From the NCBI RefSeq assembly GCF_001746415.1, contig NZ_MEHJ01000001.1, forward strand, positions 3,059,001-3,123,000: a stretch of DNA of 64,000 nucleotides, written 5' to 3'. Positions within the stretch are counted from its first letter, which is position 1; every line of letters starts with the position of its first letter. Positions 25,665 through 46,214 of the stretch are shown here, in pieces. The translations under genes were made by a program, and so were the position numbers. Source of the stretch: Streptomyces agglomeratus. GTDB taxonomy: Bacteria > Actinomycetota > Actinomycetes > Streptomycetales > Streptomycetaceae. A model generated the notes under the pieces. It saw nothing but the letters and a program-made list of their open reading frames with translations. It made no database searches and had not been told where the DNA came from.

Positions 25665-26501
25665 CTACGGCTTGGGGAGGGCGCAGCCGGGGCGGGACAG
25701 GTCGAGCTTGCTGCCGGCGCCGATGCAGGCGACGAAGCCGTACGTCTGCTGGCCGTAGTTGATGCCCCTGCGCACGGTCACGTTGCCGCTCTCGTCGACC
25801 TCGCACGGGTTGTTGTCCGTGCAGCGCGCGCCGTCTTCGTTACCCGTGTTGTTCACGGCGACGACCTTTCCGGTGGCCGTGTCGATGACGGGCGAGCCCG
25901 AGGTACCGCCGATGGTCTTGCACGCGGAGGTGTAGCGGACTGAGTCCTTCCAGGTCCACGCACCCTCCTTCAGCCGGTACGCGAAGCCGTCGACGGCGCA
26001 GCTGTAGATCCGCTTCCAGTAGCCGGAGACGACCTTGATGGCCGTGCCCTGCACGGGGCGCGTCGCGCTCAGCTCCAGGGCGTCGATGCCGTAGCCGCTC
26101 TTGATCTGGGCGTAGGTACTGGTGAGCTGGTAGAGCGAGGCGTCGGTGTCGGTCATCGTCGCGTACGCGATCTTGCTCGCCCGGAGGGTCGCCACCTTGG
26201 TGCCGGCCGAGTTGAGCAGGCCGAAGGTACGGGAGGACGGCTTGTCGACCAGGACCTGGCCCGGAGCCGGGAAGCCGCTCTCCAGGCAGTGGCCGTTGGA
26301 CAGGACGAGCGCCGGGTCCGCGGGCTGCGAGCCGGGCGTACGGACGACGGAGCCGGAACAGTTGCTGAGCGCCACCGTTCCGGCGAAGTCGACGGCCCTG
26401 ACGGCCGGCCGGGCCTGCTGAACCGTCTGCGCGGCGGCCGGCGCCGCTCCCGCGCCGAGGAGCAGCAGGGCTAAGAGCGTGCCGACGAGAGGCTTCTTCA
26501 T
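25665..26501 (-). CDS. secreted trypsin-like serine protease with a TTA codon
   Basis: 278-residue exported S1-type protease. Signal peptide 1-24 (MKKPLVGTLL start, AAAQ cleavage), then catalytic H71 (LSNGHC), D120 (MTDTDASLYQL) and S201 (GGTSGSPVID); six or more Cys probably form disulphides, and residues around 220-235 hold a Cys/Asn-rich loop. Codon 10 is TTA (26472-26474 on the plus strand reads TAA), in the signal peptide, so translation should need the bldA tRNA and be tied to late development. ATG at 26501 has GAGGGG upstream. Promoter-like elements lie at 26568-26595. Confidence 0.9.
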   Translation of the reverse strand: MKKPLVGTLLALLLLGAGAAPAAAQTVQQARPAVRAVDFAGTVALSNCSGSVVRTPGSQPADPALVLSNGHCLESGFPAPGQVLVDKPSSRTFGLLNSAGTKVATLRASKIAYATMTDTDASLYQLTSTYAQIKSGYGIDALELSATRPVQGTAIKVVSGYWKRIYSCAVDGFAYRLKEGAWTWKDSVRYTSACKTIGGTSGSPVIDTATGKVVAVNNTGNEDGARCTDNNPCEVDESGNVTVRRGINYGQQTYGFVACIGAGSKLDLSRPGCALPKP

Positions 26502-33780: not shown

Positions 33781-36234
33781 TCACCGCCTGCGGAAGTCAC
33801 CCTTCCCGCAGGCCCTGCCGTCCTTGTTCCGGTCCAGGCCGTGCCGGTCGTGCCGTACGTCCAGGACGCCGTACCCCTTGGACTTCAGCCACTCGCACCG
33901 GTCGGCCGCCGGCACCTTCCTGGGGAACTTCCACGGCACGCAGGTGCTGACCTCGCCGTACGCGTGGTCGCAGCCGTCGTACCCCTCGGGCATCTTCACG
34001 CCCCGCTTCGCGGCCTCCGGCTTCCCGTGGTCCCCGTGCCCCGGTCCCCTCGGGGCCGCCGCCAGCTCGTCGGCGAAACTCTGCACACGCTCCGCCGCCA
34101 CCTGCCCCCGCGGGCCGATCCGCACCCACTTCGACACCGACGGCAGTCCCTTCGCGTCGACGACCGACAGCATGTACCAGCCGGGTGGCGCCAGGTTGGG
34201 GTTGCTGGTGAGGCTGAGGTCGATGGTGTTGCCGTTGACGGTCATCGGCAGGTCGACCAGGCGCTGGTTCGGGTCGGAAGAGTGGGTGACCGCGGCCGGA
34301 CGAATCAGCGACGCCTTCACCACCGGCCGGTCGACCGTGATGCGCTGCGCCGATCCGTACGCCCAGTTCTGCGAGGCCACCGAGGTGATCTTCGGGCGGG
34401 CGCCCTTGAAGAAGTACGGCGGCTTGTAGACCGACACCCGCTGCTCGAACGACCCGTCGCCCGGGTTGTCCCCGACGCTCAGCACCCGGCCGTCCGGCAG
34501 CAGCGTGGACGAGGAGTGGTACGTACGCGGCACCGGGTCGGCGGCCAGGCCCGGCTGGAACGTGTTGGTCGCCGGGTCGTACATCGACGCCTCGAAGACC
34601 GGGTCCTCGCGGTAGGTGTGCAGCGCGCCGCCCGTCTCCAGGACCTTGCCGTCCGGCAGGATCACCGCCGAGAGGTAGACCTTGCCCTCGGCGCCCTTCT
34701 GGAAGGTGCCGTCCTTGTACCTGCCCTGCGGCAGGTCGGGCCCGGCGACGTACTCGGGCGAGGCGGCCTTGAGGTCGATCAGGTCCACCAGCCGGTGCGC
34801 GTCGGGAGAGACGGTGTGGTTTCCGCCGCCGGCCGTGAGCACCTTCTGGTCCTGGGCGGGCGGCAGCAGCAGCGACGCGGACTGGTCGCGCTCGTCCTTC
34901 TTCCGCAGCCCCGGTACGTCGGTGACCGTGCCCTTCTCGTAGTCGTAGACGGAGGCTCCGGTCCCGGGCAGTCCGACGCCGAAGGTGTGGCTGCCGCTGT
35001 AGAAGAGGCGCCCGTCCTGGAGCAGGATCATCGCCGGGTAGAGCCCCCAGAACGACCACGCCTGCTTGGCCTCGCCCAACGGCAGCCACTTGTTCTGGGC
35101 GAAGCTGAAGTGCTCGTTGACGACCGTTCCGGCGGCGTCCTCGCCCAGCCCGCCGAGCGAGACGACGTCACCGTTGCCCATGGCGGTCGCCGACGGATAC
35201 CAGTGGCCCGCCAGCATGTCGTTGACCTTCAGGTACTTGTTGAGCTTGGGATCGAAGACGTAACTCGACCTCAGCCCCTTGTACCCGACCGTCCCGTCCG
35301 GCGACGCGTAGTCCTTGTTCCCGCCGACCACGAGCACCCGCCCGTCCGGCAGTTGGACATGCCCCGCGCAGAAGAAGTCCTCGGGCGTCGGGATGTCCGT
35401 GTACCTGCCGGTCACCGGGTCGAAGACCGACGACTTGAAGGTGCCGGCGGCGAAGGCGTCACGGTCGTTGCCCGAGCCCGCGATGAGCAGCACCTTCCCG
35501 GTGTGCAGCAGTACGGAGTGGATGGCGCGCACCGGTGACGGAGCGGTCTGGACCGTCCACTGGCCCTTGCACTCGGGCCCCTTGCCCTCGCACGGGTCGA
35601 CGGGCGGCTCGGGCACGACGGTCGCGTCCACCATCGCGTAGTCGTCCGTGGTGAGCGAACCGACGCCGTAGAGGGCCGCGCCCCAGGTGATCTGGTCGGT
35701 GTTCGCGGGAACGACCGGGGTACGGACCTCGGTACGGGCGTACGCCGCACTCTGCGGCAGGGTGTTGAGGTCGGCCCAGAAGACCCAGCCGGCCGTCTTG
35801 TCGTGCCGGAACAGCGTCATGGCCACATCGGGCGACGTCGACCTGTACCAGAGGGAAAGGTCGTACTGATGGCCCTCGGTGACCTTCGGCGCGCACGCGT
35901 TCTCCAGCATCATCGCCTTGCGGTCGCCGTCGGTGCGGCGGGTGAGGTCGATGCGCAGGGCGCGGTCCCCGGAGTGTGCGTCGTCCGTCACCGTGTACGT
36001 GTAGTCGTTGTCGCCCCAGCCGGACTTCTCGAAGCACTCGGGGAACTCCCCCTGCGCGTCGAGCGTTTCCAGACCGGGATTGGCTATCAGGTTCGGCGCG
36101 GCGCTGGCGGGTGTGGCGTCGAGCGGCGCCAGCCCGAAGCCCGCGGCGAGCAGGGCCAACGCGGTGAGGAAAAGGCGCATCCTGCCGCGCCCGGGTCTCC
36201 CTGCGTTCCTTCGGTACGAGTGGTGCGGGGTCAT
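33781..36234 (-). CDS. secreted copper-radical oxidase (galactose oxidase/GlxA type)
   Basis: 817 residues. Signal peptide 1-46, N-terminal carbohydrate-binding-like beta sandwich (47-205), seven-bladed kelch-type propeller (about 225-600), DUF1929-type C-terminal domain (about 610-710), and a His/Gly/Pro linker to an excalibur-like Ca-binding end (CEWLKSKGYGV ... GLDRNKDGRAC). Every copper/radical residue of galactose oxidase has a counterpart: crosslink Cys289 (FFCAGH), Tyr346 (HWYPSAT), Tyr572-His573 (RTYHSSS), His651 (VTHSSDPNQR). It should oxidise a primary alcohol, probably in a surface glycan, to an aldehyde with H2O2 release. ATG at 36234 overlaps the stop of the upstream glycosyltransferase gene (ATGA). 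Confidence 0.92.
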   Translation of the reverse strand: MTPHHSYRRNAGRPGRGRMRLFLTALALLAAGFGLAPLDATPASAAPNLIANPGLETLDAQGEFPECFEKSGWGDNDYTYTVTDDAHSGDRALRIDLTRRTDGDRKAMMLENACAPKVTEGHQYDLSLWYRSTSPDVAMTLFRHDKTAGWVFWADLNTLPQSAAYARTEVRTPVVPANTDQITWGAALYGVGSLTTDDYAMVDATVVPEPPVDPCEGKGPECKGQWTVQTAPSPVRAIHSVLLHTGKVLLIAGSGNDRDAFAAGTFKSSVFDPVTGRYTDIPTPEDFFCAGHVQLPDGRVLVVGGNKDYASPDGTVGYKGLRSSYVFDPKLNKYLKVNDMLAGHWYPSATAMGNGDVVSLGGLGEDAAGTVVNEHFSFAQNKWLPLGEAKQAWSFWGLYPAMILLQDGRLFYSGSHTFGVGLPGTGASVYDYEKGTVTDVPGLRKKDERDQSASLLLPPAQDQKVLTAGGGNHTVSPDAHRLVDLIDLKAASPEYVAGPDLPQGRYKDGTFQKGAEGKVYLSAVILPDGKVLETGGALHTYREDPVFEASMYDPATNTFQPGLAADPVPRTYHSSSTLLPDGRVLSVGDNPGDGSFEQRVSVYKPPYFFKGARPKITSVASQNWAYGSAQRITVDRPVVKASLIRPAAVTHSSDPNQRLVDLPMTVNGNTIDLSLTSNPNLAPPGWYMLSVVDAKGLPSVSKWVRIGPRGQVAAERVQSFADELAAAPRGPGHGDHGKPEAAKRGVKMPEGYDGCDHAYGEVSTCVPWKFPRKVPAADRCEWLKSKGYGVLDVRHDRHGLDRNKDGRACGKGDFRRR

Positions 36235-37853
36235 CCCTCCCCCTTCTGGAGCGGCTGCTTGCGCCGGTCGGCCCGGTCGACCCGGAGGATGTCGATCCGG
36301 CCGTCCCCCTCCCCGAAGCTCGCGACCGGTTCGCTGTGCTCGAACAGGTCCCGCAGCGTGGGCAGATTGTGCTGTTCGCCGCGCAGGGCGGGCGTGGACA
36401 CGACGTAGTCGATGTCCTTCCAGCCGCGCGGCAGTGTCCTGGCGACCGCGGGGTCCTGGTCGAGTTTGTAGTGCCAGATGGCGCCGGTGCCCGGCCGGTA
36501 TCCGGCCTCGACGGCGTCCAGCCACAGCACGCCGTCGGTGACGACGCGGGTGCGTTCCCGGTCGCCGACCGGCGTCTCGCGCAGCCAGCGGGAGGCCGCG
36601 TGGTAGACGCCGTTGTCGTCGCCGCGCACGGTGTCCCGGTCCTCGCGGTACCAGTGCGGGGCCACGAACACGGCGGCGACGGCCAGCAGGGCGGTGACCG
36701 CCGCCGGGCGCAGCGCGCGGTGGCGGGACGGGACGAGGGCGACGAGCGCGCACCCCAGTCCGGTCACGGTGAGCGCGAGGAAGGGCAGCAACTGGGCGAC
36801 GTACATCTGCGGCAGGTAGCCGCCGGGGCGCAGTGCGACCAGGGCCAGCACCAGGACGGCGAGGGCGACGGGGCGCAGGCGGCGTACGGCGAGGCCGATC
36901 ACGGCGGCCGCGCAGCCGGCGGCCAGCAGATAGGGGTCGCGCGAGAACCAGTCGAGGATCAGCGTGTTGGCGTCGGTCCCGTCCTCGAAGACGGAGCCGC
37001 TGCCCTCGCGCCCGCCGAGCTGGAACTTGAGCGTGCCGAGGAGCGAGACGTGGCCGGCGCCCGGCACCAGTTCGCCCTTGAGCGTGGCGTACAGCGGGTA
37101 GAAGAGGCCGGTGAGGACCAGTCCCGAGCCGAAGCCGGCGAACGAGAACTTGCGGGTCCTCGGATGGCTGCCGTGCCACAGAGTCACCAGCACGACGGGC
37201 AGCAGGACCGCGATCGTCTCCTTGGAGAGGACGGCGAGGGCGAATGCGCTGCCCGCGGCGATGTGGTGCCACAGGTGGCGGCGGGGCGACAGGGCGAGAG
37301 CGAAGGCGGCCAGCGCCCAGACGACCGCGAAGTTGTCGAGGTATATCTGCCGGTGCAGGGTCACCGCGAGCGGTGAGAGCCCGTACAGCAGCATGGCGAA
37401 TGCGGCGGCCGGGCGGCCGAGACCGATGCGGCGGCCCACGACGAACACGAGGGCGGCGCCGGCGGCGACGACGGGCAGCATGGCGACGCGGCCCTGGACG
37501 AACGTCGGCAGTTCGGGAAAGAGCCAGGCGGGAAGCCAGGCCAGCCCCGCGAGCTGTATCCAGCCGAACGGCGGATGGTCGTACCAGTAGGTGTAGTGGG
37601 CGAGGTCCCCGTTGCGTACGGCCCACGCCTGGGCCAGGTACGTTCCCTCGTCGTCATTGGGGAACGGGAAATTGCCGATGTTCCAGGCACGTACGGAAAT
37701 GATCAGAATCAACAGCGGAGCCACCCAGACGAAATCTCTGAGAAACGTTGACCCGACCGGTGATTCCGGCGCTTTGCGAGATGTGGACGCGGCGTGACGA
37801 GGCCGTAATTCCGGACCGTTACGGGTATTGGCGCGCAGCACAGCACTGCTCAT
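36231..37853 (-). CDS. PMT/ArnT-like membrane glycosyltransferase with a TTA codon
   Basis: 540-residue GT-C (GT39/GT83) enzyme with about 12 helices. The first outer loop carries the catalytic acidic pair (NDDEGTYLAQAWAVRNG) and the HPPFGWIQLAGLAW motif of ArnT/PMT enzymes, followed by RQIYLDNFAVVWAL; a soluble C-terminal domain (about 420-540) follows. These enzymes move sugars from polyprenyl phosphate on the outer membrane face. Codon 16 is TTA (plus strand TAA at 37806-37808), implying bldA control. ATG at 37853 follows a GGGTGGGGGGA tract. It is translationally coupled to the copper-radical oxidase. Confidence 0.88.
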   Translation of the reverse strand: MSSAVLRANTRNGPELRPRHAASTSRKAPESPVGSTFLRDFVWVAPLLILIISVRAWNIGNFPFPNDDEGTYLAQAWAVRNGDLAHYTYWYDHPPFGWIQLAGLAWLPAWLFPELPTFVQGRVAMLPVVAAGAALVFVVGRRIGLGRPAAAFAMLLYGLSPLAVTLHRQIYLDNFAVVWALAAFALALSPRRHLWHHIAAGSAFALAVLSKETIAVLLPVVLVTLWHGSHPRTRKFSFAGFGSGLVLTGLFYPLYATLKGELVPGAGHVSLLGTLKFQLGGREGSGSVFEDGTDANTLILDWFSRDPYLLAAGCAAAVIGLAVRRLRPVALAVLVLALVALRPGGYLPQMYVAQLLPFLALTVTGLGCALVALVPSRHRALRPAAVTALLAVAAVFVAPHWYREDRDTVRGDDNGVYHAASRWLRETPVGDRERTRVVTDGVLWLDAVEAGYRPGTGAIWHYKLDQDPAVARTLPRGWKDIDYVVSTPALRGEQHNLPTLRDLFEHSEPVASFGEGDGRIDILRVDRADRRKQPLQKGEG

Positions 37854-38010
37854 GCAGATCCCCCCACCCTGAAGACCCCCCTGGCCTGCAACACCCCGGA
37901 TCCGACCCCCCGGACCCGGGCATGCCGCAGCAGCATGGCACACAACGGGCAGGCCACATAAGAAGAATCTGGAATTCCGCTTATGGAGGCGGTGTGTCAC
38001 CCATGCCTCG

Positions 38011-38040
38011 TTGCCGCCTTAAACAAGCACCTGCTAGCTT
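38011..38040 (+). promoter_or_regulatory. predicted promoter of the GT2 operon
   Basis: TTGCCG (38011-38016) and TAGCTT (38035-38040) with an 18-base spacer resemble a HrdB-type promoter, about 52 bases before the GT2 ATG. The 239-base divergent region also holds A/T-rich stretches rare in this genome, so promoters for both arms probably lie here. Confidence 0.55.
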
Positions 38041-38092
38041 CCCCGGCGGGGAGAGAAATAACAGAACACCGAGGAAGACCCAGGGGGAATTC

Positions 38093-39346
38093 ATGGTCTC
38101 CGCTGTCCTTTTATTGGACTCGCTCGTACTCATGGCCACCGCCGGCGTCACGCTGTGGTGGATGGTCCACGCCTGGCGCACGCCAGAGACGCTGGAAGCG
38201 ACCGCCTTCGCCGAACCGGACGGACACCACGGGGTGTCGTTCTCGCTGCTCGTCCCGGCCCGGCACGAAGAGACCGTGCTCAGGCACACGGTCGAGAACA
38301 TGCTGAAGATCGGCCATCCCGCCTTCGAGATCGTGCTGATCGTCGGCCACGACGACCCCGGCACCGCGGCCATCGCCCATCAGCTCGCCGCCGAACACCC
38401 GCACAAGGTGCAGACCGTGGTGGACCAGCACGCGGCCAAGAACAAGCCGCGCGCCCTCAACACCGCGCTGCCGTACGCGAAGGGCGACGTGGTCGGCGTG
38501 TTCGACGCGGAGGACATCGTCCACCCCGAGCTGCTCAGCCACGTCGACTTCGCCTTCCGCCGCGACGACGCGGACGTGGTGCAGGGCGGCGTACAGCTCG
38601 TCAACTACGACACGAGCTGGTACAGCCTGCGCAACTGCCTGGAGTACTTCTTCTGGTTCCGCAGCCGGCTGCACCTGCACGCCCGCAAGGGGTTCATCCC
38701 GCTCGGCGGCAACACCGTCTTCGTCCGGGCCGCGCTGCTGCGCGAGACCGGCGGCTGGGACGGCGACTGCCTCGCCGAGGACTGCGACCTGGGCGTACGG
38801 CTGTCCTCGCGCGGCGCCAAGGTCGTCGTCGCGTACCACGCCGCGCTCGTCACCCGCGAGGAGACGCCCGACACGCTGCTCGCCCTCTACAAGCAGCGCA
38901 CCCGCTGGAACCAGGGCTTCCTCCAGGTCCTGCGCAAGGGCGAGTGGCGCGGGCTCCCGGGCTGGCGCCAGCGCCTCCTGGCGCGCTACACCCTCTCGAC
39001 GCCGTTCCTCCAGGCGGCCACCGGCATCATGATCCCGCTCGGCCTGCTGCTGGCCTGGGTCGGCGGGGTGTCCCTGCCCATCGCGCTCGTCGCCTGGCTC
39101 CCGATGGTGCCGATGGCCGCGATGATGGTCTTCGAGGCCGTCGCCCTGCACGACTTCGGCCGCGAGTACGGTTTCCGGATCGGTCCGTGGCAGTACGTGA
39201 AGCTCACGGTCGGAGGCCCGGTGTACGCCGTCGTACTCGCCGCGGCCGCTCTGCGCGCCGTCTGGCGCGAGTACACCGGGCGCAGGGACTGGGAACTCAC
39301 CTCGCACATCGGCGCCCACCTGGAACCCCAGCGGGAGGCGCGGTGA
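38093..39346 (+). CDS. processive-type family 2 glycosyltransferase with a TTA codon
   Basis: 417-residue membrane GT2. An N-terminal helix (4-24) precedes a GT-A catalytic domain (48-275) with FSLLVPARHEE, DxD-type DAED (138-141), the LAED acceptor-base motif (227-230) and QxxRW as QRTRW (268-272), all as in cellulose/chitin/hyaluronan synthases. Three to four C-terminal helices follow. Such enzymes polymerise sugars and pass them across the membrane, although this one is shorter than CslA. Codon 7 is TTA (38111-38113), so bldA tRNA should be needed. ATG at 38093 has AGGGGGA 6 bases upstream. Its stop overlaps the next gene (GTGA). Confidence 0.9.
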   Translation: MVSAVLLLDSLVLMATAGVTLWWMVHAWRTPETLEATAFAEPDGHHGVSFSLLVPARHEETVLRHTVENMLKIGHPAFEIVLIVGHDDPGTAAIAHQLAAEHPHKVQTVVDQHAAKNKPRALNTALPYAKGDVVGVFDAEDIVHPELLSHVDFAFRRDDADVVQGGVQLVNYDTSWYSLRNCLEYFFWFRSRLHLHARKGFIPLGGNTVFVRAALLRETGGWDGDCLAEDCDLGVRLSSRGAKVVVAYHAALVTREETPDTLLALYKQRTRWNQGFLQVLRKGEWRGLPGWRQRLLARYTLSTPFLQAATGIMIPLGLLLAWVGGVSLPIALVAWLPMVPMAAMMVFEAVALHDFGREYGFRIGPWQYVKLTVGGPVYAVVLAAAALRAVWREYTGRRDWELTSHIGAHLEPQREAR

Positions 39347-40569
39347 CGGCGGACCCGCTCGACCTGCCCGTCGACATGCCCCTCGACGTGCCGTTCGGCA
39401 CGGCTCTCGACGTGTCCGTCGTCGTACCGACCTACAACGAGGCCGGCAACATCCACGAGCTGCTGCACCGGATCGGCGCGGCCATGGCCTCGGCCGGCCT
39501 CAGCGCCGAGGTGATCTTCGCGGACGATTCGACGGACCACACCTGCGAGGTCATCGAGGACGCGGCGGGCTCCTCTCCGCTTCCCGTCGTCCTGCACCAC
39601 AGGGCGGAGCCGACCGGCGGCCTCGGCGGCGCGGTCGTCGAGGGCATCGGCCGCTCCGCCGCCCCCTGGATCGTCGTCATCGACGCCGACCTCCAGCACC
39701 CGCCGGAGCTCGTTCCCGAGCTGCTCGCACGGGGCAGGTCGACCGGCGCGGAGCTCGTCGTCGCCAGCCGGTACGCGGCGGGCGGCAGCCGGTCCGGGCT
39801 CGCGGGCGCCTACCGGACGCTGGTGTCCGGCGTGTCCACGGCCGTCACCAAGTCGCTGTTCCCACGGGCGCTGCGCGGCCTGACCGACCCGATGAGCGGC
39901 TTCTTCGCGATCCGCCGGGAGGCGGTGGACCGGGCCGCCACCGGGGAGGACGGCCTCCAGCCGCTCGGCTACAAGATCCTGCTCGAACTGGCTGTACGCT
40001 GCCGGCCGGCCGGGATCACCGAGGTGCCGTACGCCTTCGGGGAGCGGCACGCGGGCGAGTCCAAGTCGACGGTGCGCGAGGGCCTGCGCTTCCTGCGCCA
40101 CCTCGTCACGCTGCGCACCGCGGACCCGCGGGCGCGGGTCGCCGTCTTCGGCCTGATCGGGCTGTCCGGGTTCGTACCGAACCTGGCGCTGCTGTGGCTC
40201 CTCAACGGTCCGGGCGGCATGCACTACGCCCCGGCCGAGATCATCGCCAACCAGGCGGGCCTTCTCTGGAACTTCCTCCTGGTCGACTCGCTGCTCTACC
40301 GCCTGCGGCGGAGCCACCGGCGCCGGTCGGTGCGGCTGCTCACGTTCGCGGCCGTGGGGAACGCGGACCTGGTCGCCCGGCTGCCGCTGGCGGCGCTGTT
40401 CATCGCCTGGGGCGGGCTGGACCCGGTCCCCGCGACGGCGGTCAGCATGGTGGTGGTCTTCGCGGGCCGGTTCCTGCTGGTGGACCGGTGGCTGTACCGC
40501 CGGCGCGGCGCGCGCGCCACGTCCGAACCGGTACGGGTGGAGACCCCGCTTCCCGATCCGACACCGTAA
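39343..40569 (+). CDS. DPM-like GT2 fused to a GtrA domain
   Basis: 408 residues from a GTG overlapping the previous stop by four bases. Residues 22-250 are a dolichyl-phosphate-mannose-synthase-type GT2: VSVVVPTYNEAGN, DDSTD, DADLQHPPE (DxD at 114-116) and VASRYAAGG; it should charge polyprenyl phosphate with a sugar. Residues about 270-390 are a GtrA-like four-helix membrane domain (RVAVFGLIGLSGFVPNLALL; NFLLVDSLLY), thought to flip the lipid-linked sugar. It would supply donor for the GT-C enzyme encoded on the divergent arm. Confidence 0.92.
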   Translation: MTADPLDLPVDMPLDVPFGTALDVSVVVPTYNEAGNIHELLHRIGAAMASAGLSAEVIFADDSTDHTCEVIEDAAGSSPLPVVLHHRAEPTGGLGGAVVEGIGRSAAPWIVVIDADLQHPPELVPELLARGRSTGAELVVASRYAAGGSRSGLAGAYRTLVSGVSTAVTKSLFPRALRGLTDPMSGFFAIRREAVDRAATGEDGLQPLGYKILLELAVRCRPAGITEVPYAFGERHAGESKSTVREGLRFLRHLVTLRTADPRARVAVFGLIGLSGFVPNLALLWLLNGPGGMHYAPAEIIANQAGLLWNFLLVDSLLYRLRRSHRRRSVRLLTFAAVGNADLVARLPLAALFIAWGGLDPVPATAVSMVVVFAGRFLLVDRWLYRRRGARATSEPVRVETPLPDPTP

Positions 40570-42896: not shown

Positions 42897-45800
42897 ATGC
42901 GGGACAGCCACCGGGCGGAAGCCGAGCGGCTGTTGGTACGGGCCGTCGAGGAACAGGTACGGCGGTCGGGCGGCCGGGTCGACGGTCAGGCGCTGCTGGC
43001 ACGCGGGAGGGACGCGCTGGAGGAGATCGCGGCGCGGGCCGGGGAGGAGTACGCCGCCTACGTCCGGGCGCTGGACGAGGCGCGGGCCGGGCAGCAGTCC
43101 CTGGCGGAACGATTCAGCGGGCCGGCTCTCGCAACTCCCGCCCTGGTCGCGGCCGTTGCCGCAGTCGCCGCCTTCGGTGCGGACCTGGCCCTCGGTACGG
43201 GCGCGGGCACGGCGCTCACCGCCGGCGCCGTCGTCGCCGTCGCCGGGGCCGCCGCCACCGTCGCCAGGATCACCGCCTCGCACTGGCCCGCCGCACACCG
43301 CAGGGCCGGCGCGCCGGACCGGTCCGGCGGTTCCGAGCAGCTCAGGCTGGAGTGGCTGACGGCGCTGGACGTACGGGGGATACGGCCGTTCCTGGACCAG
43401 CAGCATGTCCTGCTGGCCGCCACCCGCGGGCGTACAGGTACGGCGAAGAAGGCCGCCGTCGTCGGACAGCTGCGCGGGGCCGACCGCAGCCAGGCGGCGC
43501 GCAGGCGGTCCGTACTGGAGCAGTCCTTCGCGCATCTGCCGGAGCCCGAGGGGCCGTTCGCGGGGCGGCGGACGGCGATGGGGCAGATCGCGCAGTGGGT
43601 GCACGCGGCGCGGGCCAGCACGGAGACGCGGCCGACGGTGGTGGTGCTGCACGGGGCGCCGGGTTCGGGGCGGACGACGCTGGCGGTGCGGGCGGCGCAT
43701 CACCTGCGGGACCAGTTCCGGGGCGCGTGCGTGGTGGATCTGCGCGGTGACGCGGCGGGCGAGACGCCGCTGTCGACACGGGAGGCGCTGCTGCATCTGC
43801 TCAACCGGCTCGGCGCTCCGCGCGAGCAGCTGCTCTTCCGGAACGGGGTCTCCCCTGCCCGAGCGGAATCGGGAGCCGGAGCCGGAGCCGGAGCTGGGGC
43901 CGGAGCCGGAGCTGGAGCCGGGGCCGGAGCGGGGGGAAGCTCCTCGCGGGAGCAGCAGTTGCGCCGGCTGACCGAGCTGTACCACCAGCATCTGACGGGG
44001 CTGCCGGTGACGGTGGTGCTGGACGACGCCTCGGACGCGGCGCAGGTGCGCACGCTGGTGCCGGAGCGCTCGGACAGCCTGGTGCTGGTGACGGCCCGCG
44101 AGCCGCTCGATCTGCCCGCCGACTTCCCCGCGTGGGTGCACCAGCTGCCGGTGGAGGCGCTGGACACCGCGGGCGCGGAGGAGCTGCTGCGGGGGGTGGC
44201 CGAGGAGAAGGAGGGGCCGTACGACGCGGAGGCGGCGGACCGGATCGCCGAGCTGTGCGGCGGGCTGCCACTGGCGTTGCGCGTCGCGGGGTCCTCCCTC
44301 GGCGCGCGGACCCCGCGTGCGCTGGCGGCGGATCTCGCGGCGTACGGTCCGGTCGATCCGGTGGAGCGGGCGCTGTGGCTGCGCTACACCGACCAGCCGG
44401 ACGCGGCCCGCCGCCTGTTGCGCCGCCTCGCGCTCGCGGGGCGGGCGAGCCTCGGCGCGGCGGCGGCAGCGGCGCTGCTGGCCACCGACGAGCACGAGGC
44501 TCAGCGTCTGCTGGCCGCGCTGGCGCAGGCGGGCCTGATCGACCACGTCCGGGGCAGCCGCTACCGCCTGCACGATCTCGTACGGGCCTTCGCGCACGGG
44601 CGGCTGCTCGACGAGGAGGAGCCGGCGGAGCGGGCGGCGGCGCAGGAGCGGCTGATCCGCAACTACGGCGAGCTGGCCGACGCGGTGATCCGCCTGGTCG
44701 ACGGCAAGACGTCGACGCGGGCGGACCACTTCGGCGCCCACGGGTTCACCTCGCTCGACGCCGCCCTGCGCTGGCTGGACGACGAGTCGAGCTTCATCAC
44801 GGCGGCGCTGCGCCAGGCGGAGGGCGTCGACCAGCAGGCCGTGCTGAATCTGCTGGGCGCACTGTGCGACTACTGCCTGCTGCGCGGCGACCTGTACCGC
44901 CTGGGTGAGATCAGCGAGCTGACGCAGGCCGTGGGCCAGGGCCTGCTGGTGCGGTCGGTGCAGTGGCGTACGGGCATCGCGGCCCGCCAGCTCGGCGAGC
45001 TGGACAAGGCCCGTACGACGCTGTCGTCGGTCGTCGATCTGTACTTCGAGGCGCAGCACGAGGCCGGCGCCGCCCGCGCCCTGTGTTCGCTGGGCATCAC
45101 GCTCCACCACCAGGGCAACCTGACGGAGGCGGCGGCGAAGCTGGGCGAGGCGCTCGCCCTCCAGGCGTCGGACGAGCTGGCCGCCGACCGCGCGTGGACG
45201 CTGCACGCGCTGGCGGCGGTGGAACGTGACCGGGCGAACCTCGCCGACGCCGTCACCCACCTCGACACCGCCCTCGTCCTCCACCGCGAGAGCGAGAGCC
45301 TGCACGGGCTGGCGTGGGCGCACTTCCAGCTCGGCCAGGTGTACCTGCGGCTGGGCGACGTCCCGCGGGCGGAGGAGCAGCTGCGCGAGGCGCAGGATCT
45401 GTACGGGCGTACGCGCGACGGGCGCGGCGAGGCGTGGGCGCTGACGCAGCTGGCCCGGGCGCGGCTGGTGGACGGCGACGCGTCCGAGGCCGTCGACCGG
45501 CTGCGCCAGGCGCTGGCGCGCCACCGGGAGGCGGAGGACGCGCGGGGCGAGGCGTGGACGCTGTACTACCTCGGGCAGGCGCTGGAGGAGCGCGGCGACA
45601 CGGACCAGGCGGTGCGCGAGCTGGAGCGGGCGCGCGGGATGTTCTCGCGGATGCGGGACGTGTACGGGCTGGCCTGCGCCCGCCACCACTCGGGCCGCGT
45701 CACGCGTGACCAGCGGGCGGCACAGACCGGCAATCTACGCAATTCCGGCTTCGCACGTCAGCTTCTGGTGGACGCGCGCGCCGACTTCCACCGCATCGGG

Positions 45801-46214
45801 GTCGCGCACGGCGAGGCGTGGACGTGCCTGGAGCTGGCCATCGTGGACGCGGGCAACAACCGGCCGGCGCAGGCGCTGGAGCTGTGCGACCAGGCGGTGC
45901 GCCTCTTCATGTCGTACGACGACCGGCGCGGCGCGGACTGGGCGCGCTTCCTGCGCTGCACGCTGCTGCCGTTCGGTTCGCCGGGGGGCTCGGAGGTGGG
46001 CACCGCGGTGGCCCAGGAGGAGCTGTCCCAGCTGATCGCGGCGGCCCACCCGACCCGCGACGGCAAGCTGGAGGACTGCGCGGAGGCGTACGGCCTGGTC
46101 CTGGAACGGGGCGTGGACCTGTCGGAGGGCTGGCAGGCATGGCGGCTCGGCATGGTGCCGAACCGGCATGCGCGGGAGGTCATGGGGGTGCCGGTGGGGG
46201 CGGCGCGGGGGTAA
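42897..46214 (+). CDS. STAND-type NTPase with TPR repeats and altered P-loop
   Basis: 1105 residues. N-terminal basic helical region, a hydrophobic hairpin (about 76-130, probably two membrane helices), an NB-ARC-like NTPase (about 225-560) and about ten TPR/TPR-like helical pairs (640-1010, e.g. AWAHFQLGQVYLRLGDVPRAEEQL). The P-loop reads GAPGSGRTT (253-261), with Arg259 in place of the usual Lys; the Walker B-like VTVVLDDAS is intact. Residues 326-345 are a Gly-Ala tract encoded by a 6-base repeat. ATG at 42897 has GGAGGGGG 6 bases upstream. Relatives act as ligand-triggered signalling switches; role unknown here. Confidence 0.85.
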   Translation: MRDSHRAEAERLLVRAVEEQVRRSGGRVDGQALLARGRDALEEIAARAGEEYAAYVRALDEARAGQQSLAERFSGPALATPALVAAVAAVAAFGADLALGTGAGTALTAGAVVAVAGAAATVARITASHWPAAHRRAGAPDRSGGSEQLRLEWLTALDVRGIRPFLDQQHVLLAATRGRTGTAKKAAVVGQLRGADRSQAARRRSVLEQSFAHLPEPEGPFAGRRTAMGQIAQWVHAARASTETRPTVVVLHGAPGSGRTTLAVRAAHHLRDQFRGACVVDLRGDAAGETPLSTREALLHLLNRLGAPREQLLFRNGVSPARAESGAGAGAGAGAGAGAGAGAGAGGSSSREQQLRRLTELYHQHLTGLPVTVVLDDASDAAQVRTLVPERSDSLVLVTAREPLDLPADFPAWVHQLPVEALDTAGAEELLRGVAEEKEGPYDAEAADRIAELCGGLPLALRVAGSSLGARTPRALAADLAAYGPVDPVERALWLRYTDQPDAARRLLRRLALAGRASLGAAAAAALLATDEHEAQRLLAALAQAGLIDHVRGSRYRLHDLVRAFAHGRLLDEEEPAERAAAQERLIRNYGELADAVIRLVDGKTSTRADHFGAHGFTSLDAALRWLDDESSFITAALRQAEGVDQQAVLNLLGALCDYCLLRGDLYRLGEISELTQAVGQGLLVRSVQWRTGIAARQLGELDKARTTLSSVVDLYFEAQHEAGAARALCSLGITLHHQGNLTEAAAKLGEALALQASDELAADRAWTLHALAAVERDRANLADAVTHLDTALVLHRESESLHGLAWAHFQLGQVYLRLGDVPRAEEQLREAQDLYGRTRDGRGEAWALTQLARARLVDGDASEAVDRLRQALARHREAEDARGEAWTLYYLGQALEERGDTDQAVRELERARGMFSRMRDVYGLACARHHSGRVTRDQRAAQTGNLRNSGFARQLLVDARADFHRIGVAHGEAWTCLELAIVDAGNNRPAQALELCDQAVRLFMSYDDRRGADWARFLRCTLLPFGSPGGSEVGTAVAQEELSQLIAAAHPTRDGKLEDCAEAYGLVLERGVDLSEGWQAWRLGMVPNRHAREVMGVPVGAARG
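43871..43930 (+). repeat. hexanucleotide (GGAGCC) tract inside the STAND gene
   Basis: About ten units of GGAGCC/GGAGCT/GGGGCC encode an alternating Gly-Ala stretch between the P-loop and the Walker B-like strand. Slippage would change length in steps of two residues without shifting the frame. Confidence 0.85.

Follow-up and report, generated by a model that had tools for sequence, protein, structure and literature searches.

TTA codons in the head genes of two divergent operons of a Streptomyces agglomeratus surface-glycan locus, a possible bldA gate that persists while TTA sites turn over

Streptomyces read the rare UUA codon with the developmentally controlled bldA tRNA, and TTA codons may be either controls under selection or accidents that are merely tolerated. 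A compact and easily tested glycan locus of Streptomyces agglomeratus bears on this question. The locus lies at 33.8-40.6 kb of the 64,000-nucleotide (nt) stretch analyzed here as a whole (the window; assembly GCF_001746415.1, contig NZ_MEHJ01000001.1, positions 3,059,001 to 3,123,000) and comprises two divergent operons of two genes each; the host genome is 9.13 Mb in 5 contigs. The first, or head, gene of each operon carries a TTA codon close to its start. Comparison of the related loci revealed that TTA near the start of a head gene is common in the divergent layout, which occurs in one group of Streptomyces and near relatives, at sites that differ between lineages. Control of the locus by bldA appears to be the best single reading of this pattern, and the AT-richness of the gene starts is its live main rival.

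Two head genes with early TTA codons

The minus operon starts with a gene for a 540-aa PMT_2-like GT-C glycosyltransferase (PMT; 36231..37853, minus strand; Pfam PF13231, E 2.8e-08, and PF02366, E 4.9e-06), followed by a gene for a secreted GlxA-like kelch oxidase with a GO-like E set (33781..36234, minus strand; Pfam PF09118, E 7e-25). For the oxidase, the gene caller favoured a shorter form from 36180, and the ATG at 36234 was used. The closest solved relative of the oxidase is 4UNM ('secreted protein'; E 8.7e-86), which we take to be S. lividans GlxA. Residues Cys289, Trp345, Tyr572, His573, and His651 are invariant in all 72 aligned oxidase rows (the window included, pieces shorter than 550 aa left out) and align with the Cys, Trp, Tyr-His, and His copper sites of GlxA. 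Tyr318, also invariant, is a candidate cross-link tyrosine to which the alignment gave no assignment.

The plus operon starts with a gene for a 417-aa GT2 glycosyltransferase with a QxxRW motif (38093..39346, plus strand; Pfam PF13641, E 1.3e-48). Its solved relatives are 6YV7 (E 1.6e-10) and, as a weak match, cellulose synthase 4HG6/4P00 (E 3.3e-09), and QxxRW is present in 20/20 aligned GT2 rows from divergent loci. The second gene encodes a fusion of a GT2 domain with a GtrA/DPMS transmembrane part (GT2b; 39343..40569, plus strand, GTG start; Pfam PF00535, E 6.6e-24, and PF04138, E 2.9e-15), probably a polyprenyl-phosphate-sugar synthase. Within each operon the genes overlap by 4 nt: the PMT stop and the oxidase ATG share ATGA (36234-36231), and the GT2 stop and the GT2b GTG share GTGA (39343-39346).

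Both TTA codons are read directly in the sequence at the places given by the first-pass annotation of this DNA. From 37853 on the minus strand, PMT reads ATG AGC AGT GCT GTG CTG CGC GCC AAT ACC CGT AAC GGT CCG GAA TTA, with TTA as codon 16 (37808-37806). From 38093 on the plus strand, GT2 reads ATG GTC TCC GCT GTC CTT TTA, with TTA as codon 7 (38111-38113). The annotation had found one other in-frame TTA in the window, in a secreted protease, and a scan of the 56 called window genes bears this out: PMT, GT2, and the protease alone carry TTA, the PMT codon entering the scan once its called start is moved upstream. The protease is trypsin-like (25665-26501, minus strand) and has its TTA at codon 10 (26474). 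The host carries a bldA-type tRNA-Leu(UAA) gene, a single pattern match genome-wide with the anticodon TAA assigned by ARAGORN.

Both starts precede the TTA codons. For PMT, the gene caller chose GTG 37724, downstream of the TTA; we rejected this start because the GTG reads GTT in several orthologues. The ATG at 37853 and the G-rich sequence resembling a Shine-Dalgarno (SD) site that accompanies it are conserved in orthologues, whose N-terminal insertions and deletions are whole codons. In codons 2-36, 11/17 substitutions against locus L001 and 11/18 against L002 fall in third positions (the L numbers are our labels for related loci). For GT2, a conserved G-rich run and AATTC stand ahead of ATG or GTG in close orthologues, L001 and L002 have an in-frame stop just upstream, and codons 2-13 of seven close loci show 65 third-position, 32 first-position, and 0 second-position substitutions. 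Downstream starts were thus rejected for both genes on the conserved SD and start and on the codon-position pattern.

Across a 400-kb sample of the genome, TTA occurs in 7/330 called genes (2.1%), within the first 20 codons in 1/330, within the first 70 codons in 4/330, and in both arms of 0/48 divergent pairs. When starts are extended upstream, the three gene counts become 7, 0, and 3 of 330; both start rules are crude, the first trimming AT-rich starts and the second overextending some (under it, the TTA of GT2 becomes codon 40). If a genome holds about 1,100 divergent pairs, extrapolation gives approximately 0.01-0.2 pairs with TTA in both arms per genome. The window pair is therefore unusual yet possible by chance within a single genome, and it is the orthologues that carry weight.

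TTA codons across the related loci

The genome searches drew on overlapping sets of 392, 394, 199, and 35 genomes. GT2 has a match at E 1e-150 or better in 147/392 same-genus genomes and at least 83% identity in just 10/392, its own included; among named genomes its closest relative is in S. chryseus (98%). A scan of named genomes yielded 356 related loci, of which we used the best 80. PMT is divergent in 17 of these 80, and in 63 it follows GT2 on the same strand. Three further divergent loci (L116, L117, and L118) were added, which with the window gives 21 divergent loci; the remaining divergent hits, apparently duplicates of loci in the set, were not included. In the midpoint-rooted GT2 tree, these 21 cluster apart from the 18 co-directional rows used (18/63) with support 100/99. 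Some assemblies limit the reading of PMT and GT2: L019 is a partial contig with a long branch in the tree, the L004 PMT frame is broken after about codon 77 in a draft assembly, and the L008 PMT has a 5' end whose frame does not fit the conserved ATG in this assembly, its TTA being counted. Automatic PMT starts were wrong for L006, L008, L009, and L014; those of L006, L009, and L014 were corrected, and the 18-locus count given below omits L004, L008, and L019.

A 5' TTA is present in at least one head gene of 16/21 divergent loci and in both head genes of 7/21. Codon 7 of GT2 is TTA in 8/21 (the window, L001, L002, L003, L005, L116, L016, and L117) and TTG in L004, and L019 has no TTA there; a second GT2 TTA was found at codons 52 and 71 in L016 and L117. 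PMT has a 5' TTA in 15/21 loci, at four non-homologous sites: (i) codon 16 in the window, L001, L002, and L004, which is codon 19 in L003 owing to a 3-codon insertion (5/21), (ii) codon 66 in L116, (iii) codons 45-48, immediately ahead of the first transmembrane helix, in L118 and L006-L011, with the L008 reading doubtful, and (iv) codon 53 in L016 and L117. No 5' TTA was found in PMT of L005, L012-L015, and L019. Thus, the TTA position itself, whose conservation the first-pass annotation had proposed to check, is not generally kept, the window's sites being shared by 8/21 loci for GT2 and 5/21 for PMT.

The TTA codons are concentrated in the head genes and toward their 5' ends. Across the four genes, 26 TTAs were counted downstream of homology-placed starts; head genes hold 25 of them, and the remaining one is codon 21 of the L116 oxidase. 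Among PMT leucine codons of 19 loci (without L004 and L019), TTA accounts for 15/115 before the FPNDDEGT motif and 0/1325 after it; one of the 15 falls in the over-long L009 reading, and the start-corrected count is 13/101 in 18 loci. The GT2 codon persists in three lineages, two distant ones of which match the window at 55-66% of degenerate codons. We read it as one old site that has been kept over large synonymous divergence and lost in a large subclade.

Where a GT2b match was present, its 4-nt overlap with GT2 was found in 18/20 loci. No counterpart of this second plus-arm gene was matched in L116, where a thioredoxin-domain gene comes directly after GT2, and L012 retains just a short remnant, so some lineages may be able to do without it.

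In the co-directional form, found in Streptomyces and Actinoplanes, a GT2-PMT-GT2b-oxidase operon has a single orientation, whereas the window locus is split into two. The same genes are present in 52/63 co-directional loci and fewer in the rest, and the operon adjoins the same thioredoxin-domain gene in 31/63. For the TTA count we used the 39/63 loci from Streptomycetaceae, leaving out 24 from other families. Within the first 70 codons no TTA was found in PMT (0/39), GT2b (0/35), or the oxidase (0/34). GT2 has TTA in 5/39, one of which (L022) lies upstream of the likely start, so that four are coding. The thioredoxin-domain gene, often upstream of the co-directional GT2, has it in 2/31, one upstream of its start. 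Beyond the 70-codon limit, two Streptomyces co-directional GT2s (L051 and L068) have TTA at codon 125. Of the loci from other families, L017, L020, L026, L030, L033, L050, and L052 carry TTA in GT2, PMT, GT2b, or the oxidase.

Judged from these genomes, TTA tends to mark whichever genes of this set stand first in a transcript, and most often does so where the locus is split. The contrast between the two layouts is not clean, because the internal PMT of the co-directional operon is less AT-rich at its start, with an AT fraction at third codon positions (AT3) of 0.144. Comparing the divergent with the co-directional loci, a Fisher test gave P 1.5e-6, on which we do not rely: the divergent loci group together in the GT2 tree, and the test is not independent per locus. 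Two more pairs of a GlxA-like gene and a QxxRW glycosyltransferase gene in the same genome (L144, 6615-10492, and L145, 6457-10194) are both without TTA.

The favoured reading and its rivals

We lean, with moderate confidence, to bldA-gated expression of a surface-glycan locus in which the gate is kept by turnover of TTA sites and not by one conserved codon. In the pathway that we propose, the plus arm would supply (i) the QxxRW GT2, which makes and extrudes a polysaccharide, and (ii) the polyprenyl-phosphate-sugar synthase/GtrA protein, which provides a lipid-linked sugar; the minus arm would supply (iii) the PMT-type GT-C enzyme, acting at the outer face to attach this sugar, and (iv) the secreted GlxA-like oxidase, which oxidizes the glycan. 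As long as the bldA tRNA is scarce, ribosomes would stall at the early UUA of both head genes. The second genes of the window start in 4-nt overlaps and would fall with their head genes, so that a stall in the two head genes could silence all four. The polymer would then appear only with a rise of the bldA tRNA, in late growth or in development, and may thus be made only at certain growth stages. Here the substrates, the stalling, its polarity, and the timing are what we infer for the proteins and codons described above. A tested precedent is the pair SCO6638/SCO6637, in which a TTA gene and the next gene share a stop/start overlap and both yield less product in a bldA mutant (PMC2000904).

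Several observations weigh against this reading and keep our confidence moderate. Neither head gene has a TTA in L012-L015 or in the partial L019, and 11 loci have a phenylalanine codon (TTC or TTT) as GT2 codon 7. The 4-nt overlap of PMT and the oxidase is present in only 9/20 loci and absent in L006-L009, L011-L016, and L116, where coupling of the oxidase is therefore unsupported. Reading of UUA can be leaky when bldA is absent: S. ghanaensis AdpA is then still made, at a 15-fold lower level (PMC3814723). TTA positions in Streptomyces are described as mostly poorly conserved (PMC10327506). The claim of the first-pass annotation that the whole locus is developmentally gated thus survives in part. 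It is supported by starts upstream of the TTAs, the tRNA gene, the 4-nt overlaps behind both head genes of the window, and TTA in 16/21 loci; it is weakened by codons that are not conserved throughout (orthologues lacking TTA, which the annotation named as a refutation, are partly found, as the head genes of L012-L015 have none), by AT-rich starts, and by the conservation of a neighbouring rare codon considered next.

The main rival, which we regard as possible though doubtful, holds that the TTAs are passive: first genes have AT-rich starts, as open initiation regions or through promoter overlap, TTA is one tolerated rare codon there, and any bldA dependence is an unselected by-product. AT3 is 0.38 in the PMT N-terminus compared with 0.048 in the remainder of the gene, which makes TTA easier there, and 0.19 in GT2 codons 2-20 compared with about 0.05 elsewhere. 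The less AT-rich internal PMTs are without TTA. The rare codon CTT6, which is not UUA, is kept beside TTA7 in 11/20 aligned loci, pointing to some further, nucleotide-level constraint on the GT2 5' end that is unrelated to bldA. Against a purely passive origin, TTA exceeds what local use of TTG and CTA predicts: 13 were seen where 2.4 were expected in the PMT 5' ends (101 leucine codons, 18 loci), and 8 where 0.67 were expected in GT2 codons 2-20 (20 loci), an excess of about 5 and 12 times among loci of shared ancestry. Moreover, the co-directional GT2 has an equal AT3 (0.188) and yet uses TTG 15 times and TTA 2 times. On the side of the passive reading, a 5' TTA is also present in 3/24 other genes with a start AT3 of at least 0.3 (1/9 in the same genome, 2/15 in flanks), close to the chance of 0.149 per lineage used below. 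TTA is more frequent than local AT-richness predicts, though not overwhelmingly so.

Folding of the 5' mRNA divides in the same manner. At PMT codon 16, TTA (-32.5) folds looser than CTG (-35.7), as the passive reading would have it, but CTA (-32.5) and CTT (-31.8) are equally good; at GT2 codon 7, TTA and CTG both give -25.0. Selection of TTA to open the 5' mRNA is thus unsupported for GT2 and possible for PMT.

Chance combined with shared descent is an unlikely explanation. It takes the GT2 TTA and a few PMT TTAs as neutral and inherited in small clades, and the window pair as coincidental. The 21 divergent loci do group together, so per-locus tests are not independent, and PMC10327506 gives 51-505 TTA-containing open reading frames per Streptomyces genome, 177 on average, mostly poorly conserved. 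We therefore counted by lineage, with a chance of 0.149 for each of five: the window with L001-L004; L005 with L116; L006-L011 with L118; L012-L015; and L016 with L117. PMT TTA, at four separate sites, occurs in four of the five, for which (four or more) P is 0.0022; with the window's lineage left out, P for three or more of four is 0.012. These values are rough, since L012-L015 nest among L006-L011/L118 and L005 lacks the PMT TTA of its sister L116. Retention of the GT2 codon in three lineages over large synonymous divergence also argues against neutral inheritance.

It is very improbable that either protein, or both, should start only after the TTA and leave it in the leader: the caller preferred GTG 37724 owing to poor upstream codon usage, and third-position bias in PMT codons 2-36 is unclear in two of four comparisons (4/9 for L001-L002; 12 first, 6 second, and 11 third, or 11/29, for the window and L004), but the conserved starts and SD sequences, the loss of that GTG in orthologues, the whole-codon indels, and the bias in the other two PMT comparisons and in GT2 all speak for the upstream starts.

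For the gated locus, we tentatively suggest an origin in which one ancestral glycan operon gave rise to the two divergent ones, or the reverse. UUA gates would then head both transcripts, selection would act on UUA somewhere near the start, sites would turn over, and the gate would not be found on an internal PMT. If gating is true, structural genes of a surface polymer are tied directly to the bldA developmental switch, and TTA control can be conserved at the operon level while the codon moves. Searches for a conserved TTA position alone would miss such targets. Among the titles and abstract openings that searches of one open-licence collection listed, none dealt with TTA codons of this locus.

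Further features of the locus and comparison with known systems

The PMT and GT2 starts are separated by a divergent intergenic region of 239 bp (37854..38092). In the plus-arm leader, TTGCCG (38011-38016) and TAGCTT (38035-38040) are separated by 18 nt, and TTGCCG and a ACCTGCTA block are kept in 7/7 aligned close loci; TTGCCG-N18-TAGCTT is a possible plus-arm promoter. The PMT leader reads CATGCCGCAGCAGCATG at 37921-37937, containing the inverted repeat CATGC...GCATG; in the window, L001-L005, and L116 (7/21 divergent loci), its GCAGCAGCAT core occupies the corresponding position. This repeat could be an operator. Inspection of the intergenic region by eye revealed no convincing AdpA sites. 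Near the glycan locus, the window also encodes a large AAA/NB-ARC and TPR protein with a Gly-Ala repeat run (42897-46214).

The locus shares a QxxRW GT2 and a GlxA-like oxidase with the CslA-GlxA glucan/cellulose system. At 417 aa, its GT2 is shorter than those of the two cslA-glxA-like pairs elsewhere in the genome (592 and 648 aa), and the oxidase lacks a GlxA stretch between alignment blocks. Unlike CslA-GlxA, the locus adds PMT and polyprenyl-phosphate-sugar synthase genes and is arranged as two operons. We considered whether it is cslA-glxA itself and rejected this, as the genome has two other cslA-glxA-like pairs and both partners and layout differ. GlxA of S. coelicolor reportedly does not depend on the known developmental regulators (PMC3543389).

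With known TTA genes under bldA, namely adpA and SCO6638-SCO6637, the locus has in common the rare UUA codon and a gene for a UUA-reading tRNA. The TTA head gene SCO6638 overlaps the next gene (PMC2000904), and likewise each head gene of the window locus overlaps its partner. PMC4255298 gives TTA in adpA of 14/14 genomes, whereas in loci of the window type the TTA sites shift between lineages. Unlike in these systems, TTA stands here on two divergent operons, whose dependence on bldA is predicted from sequence.

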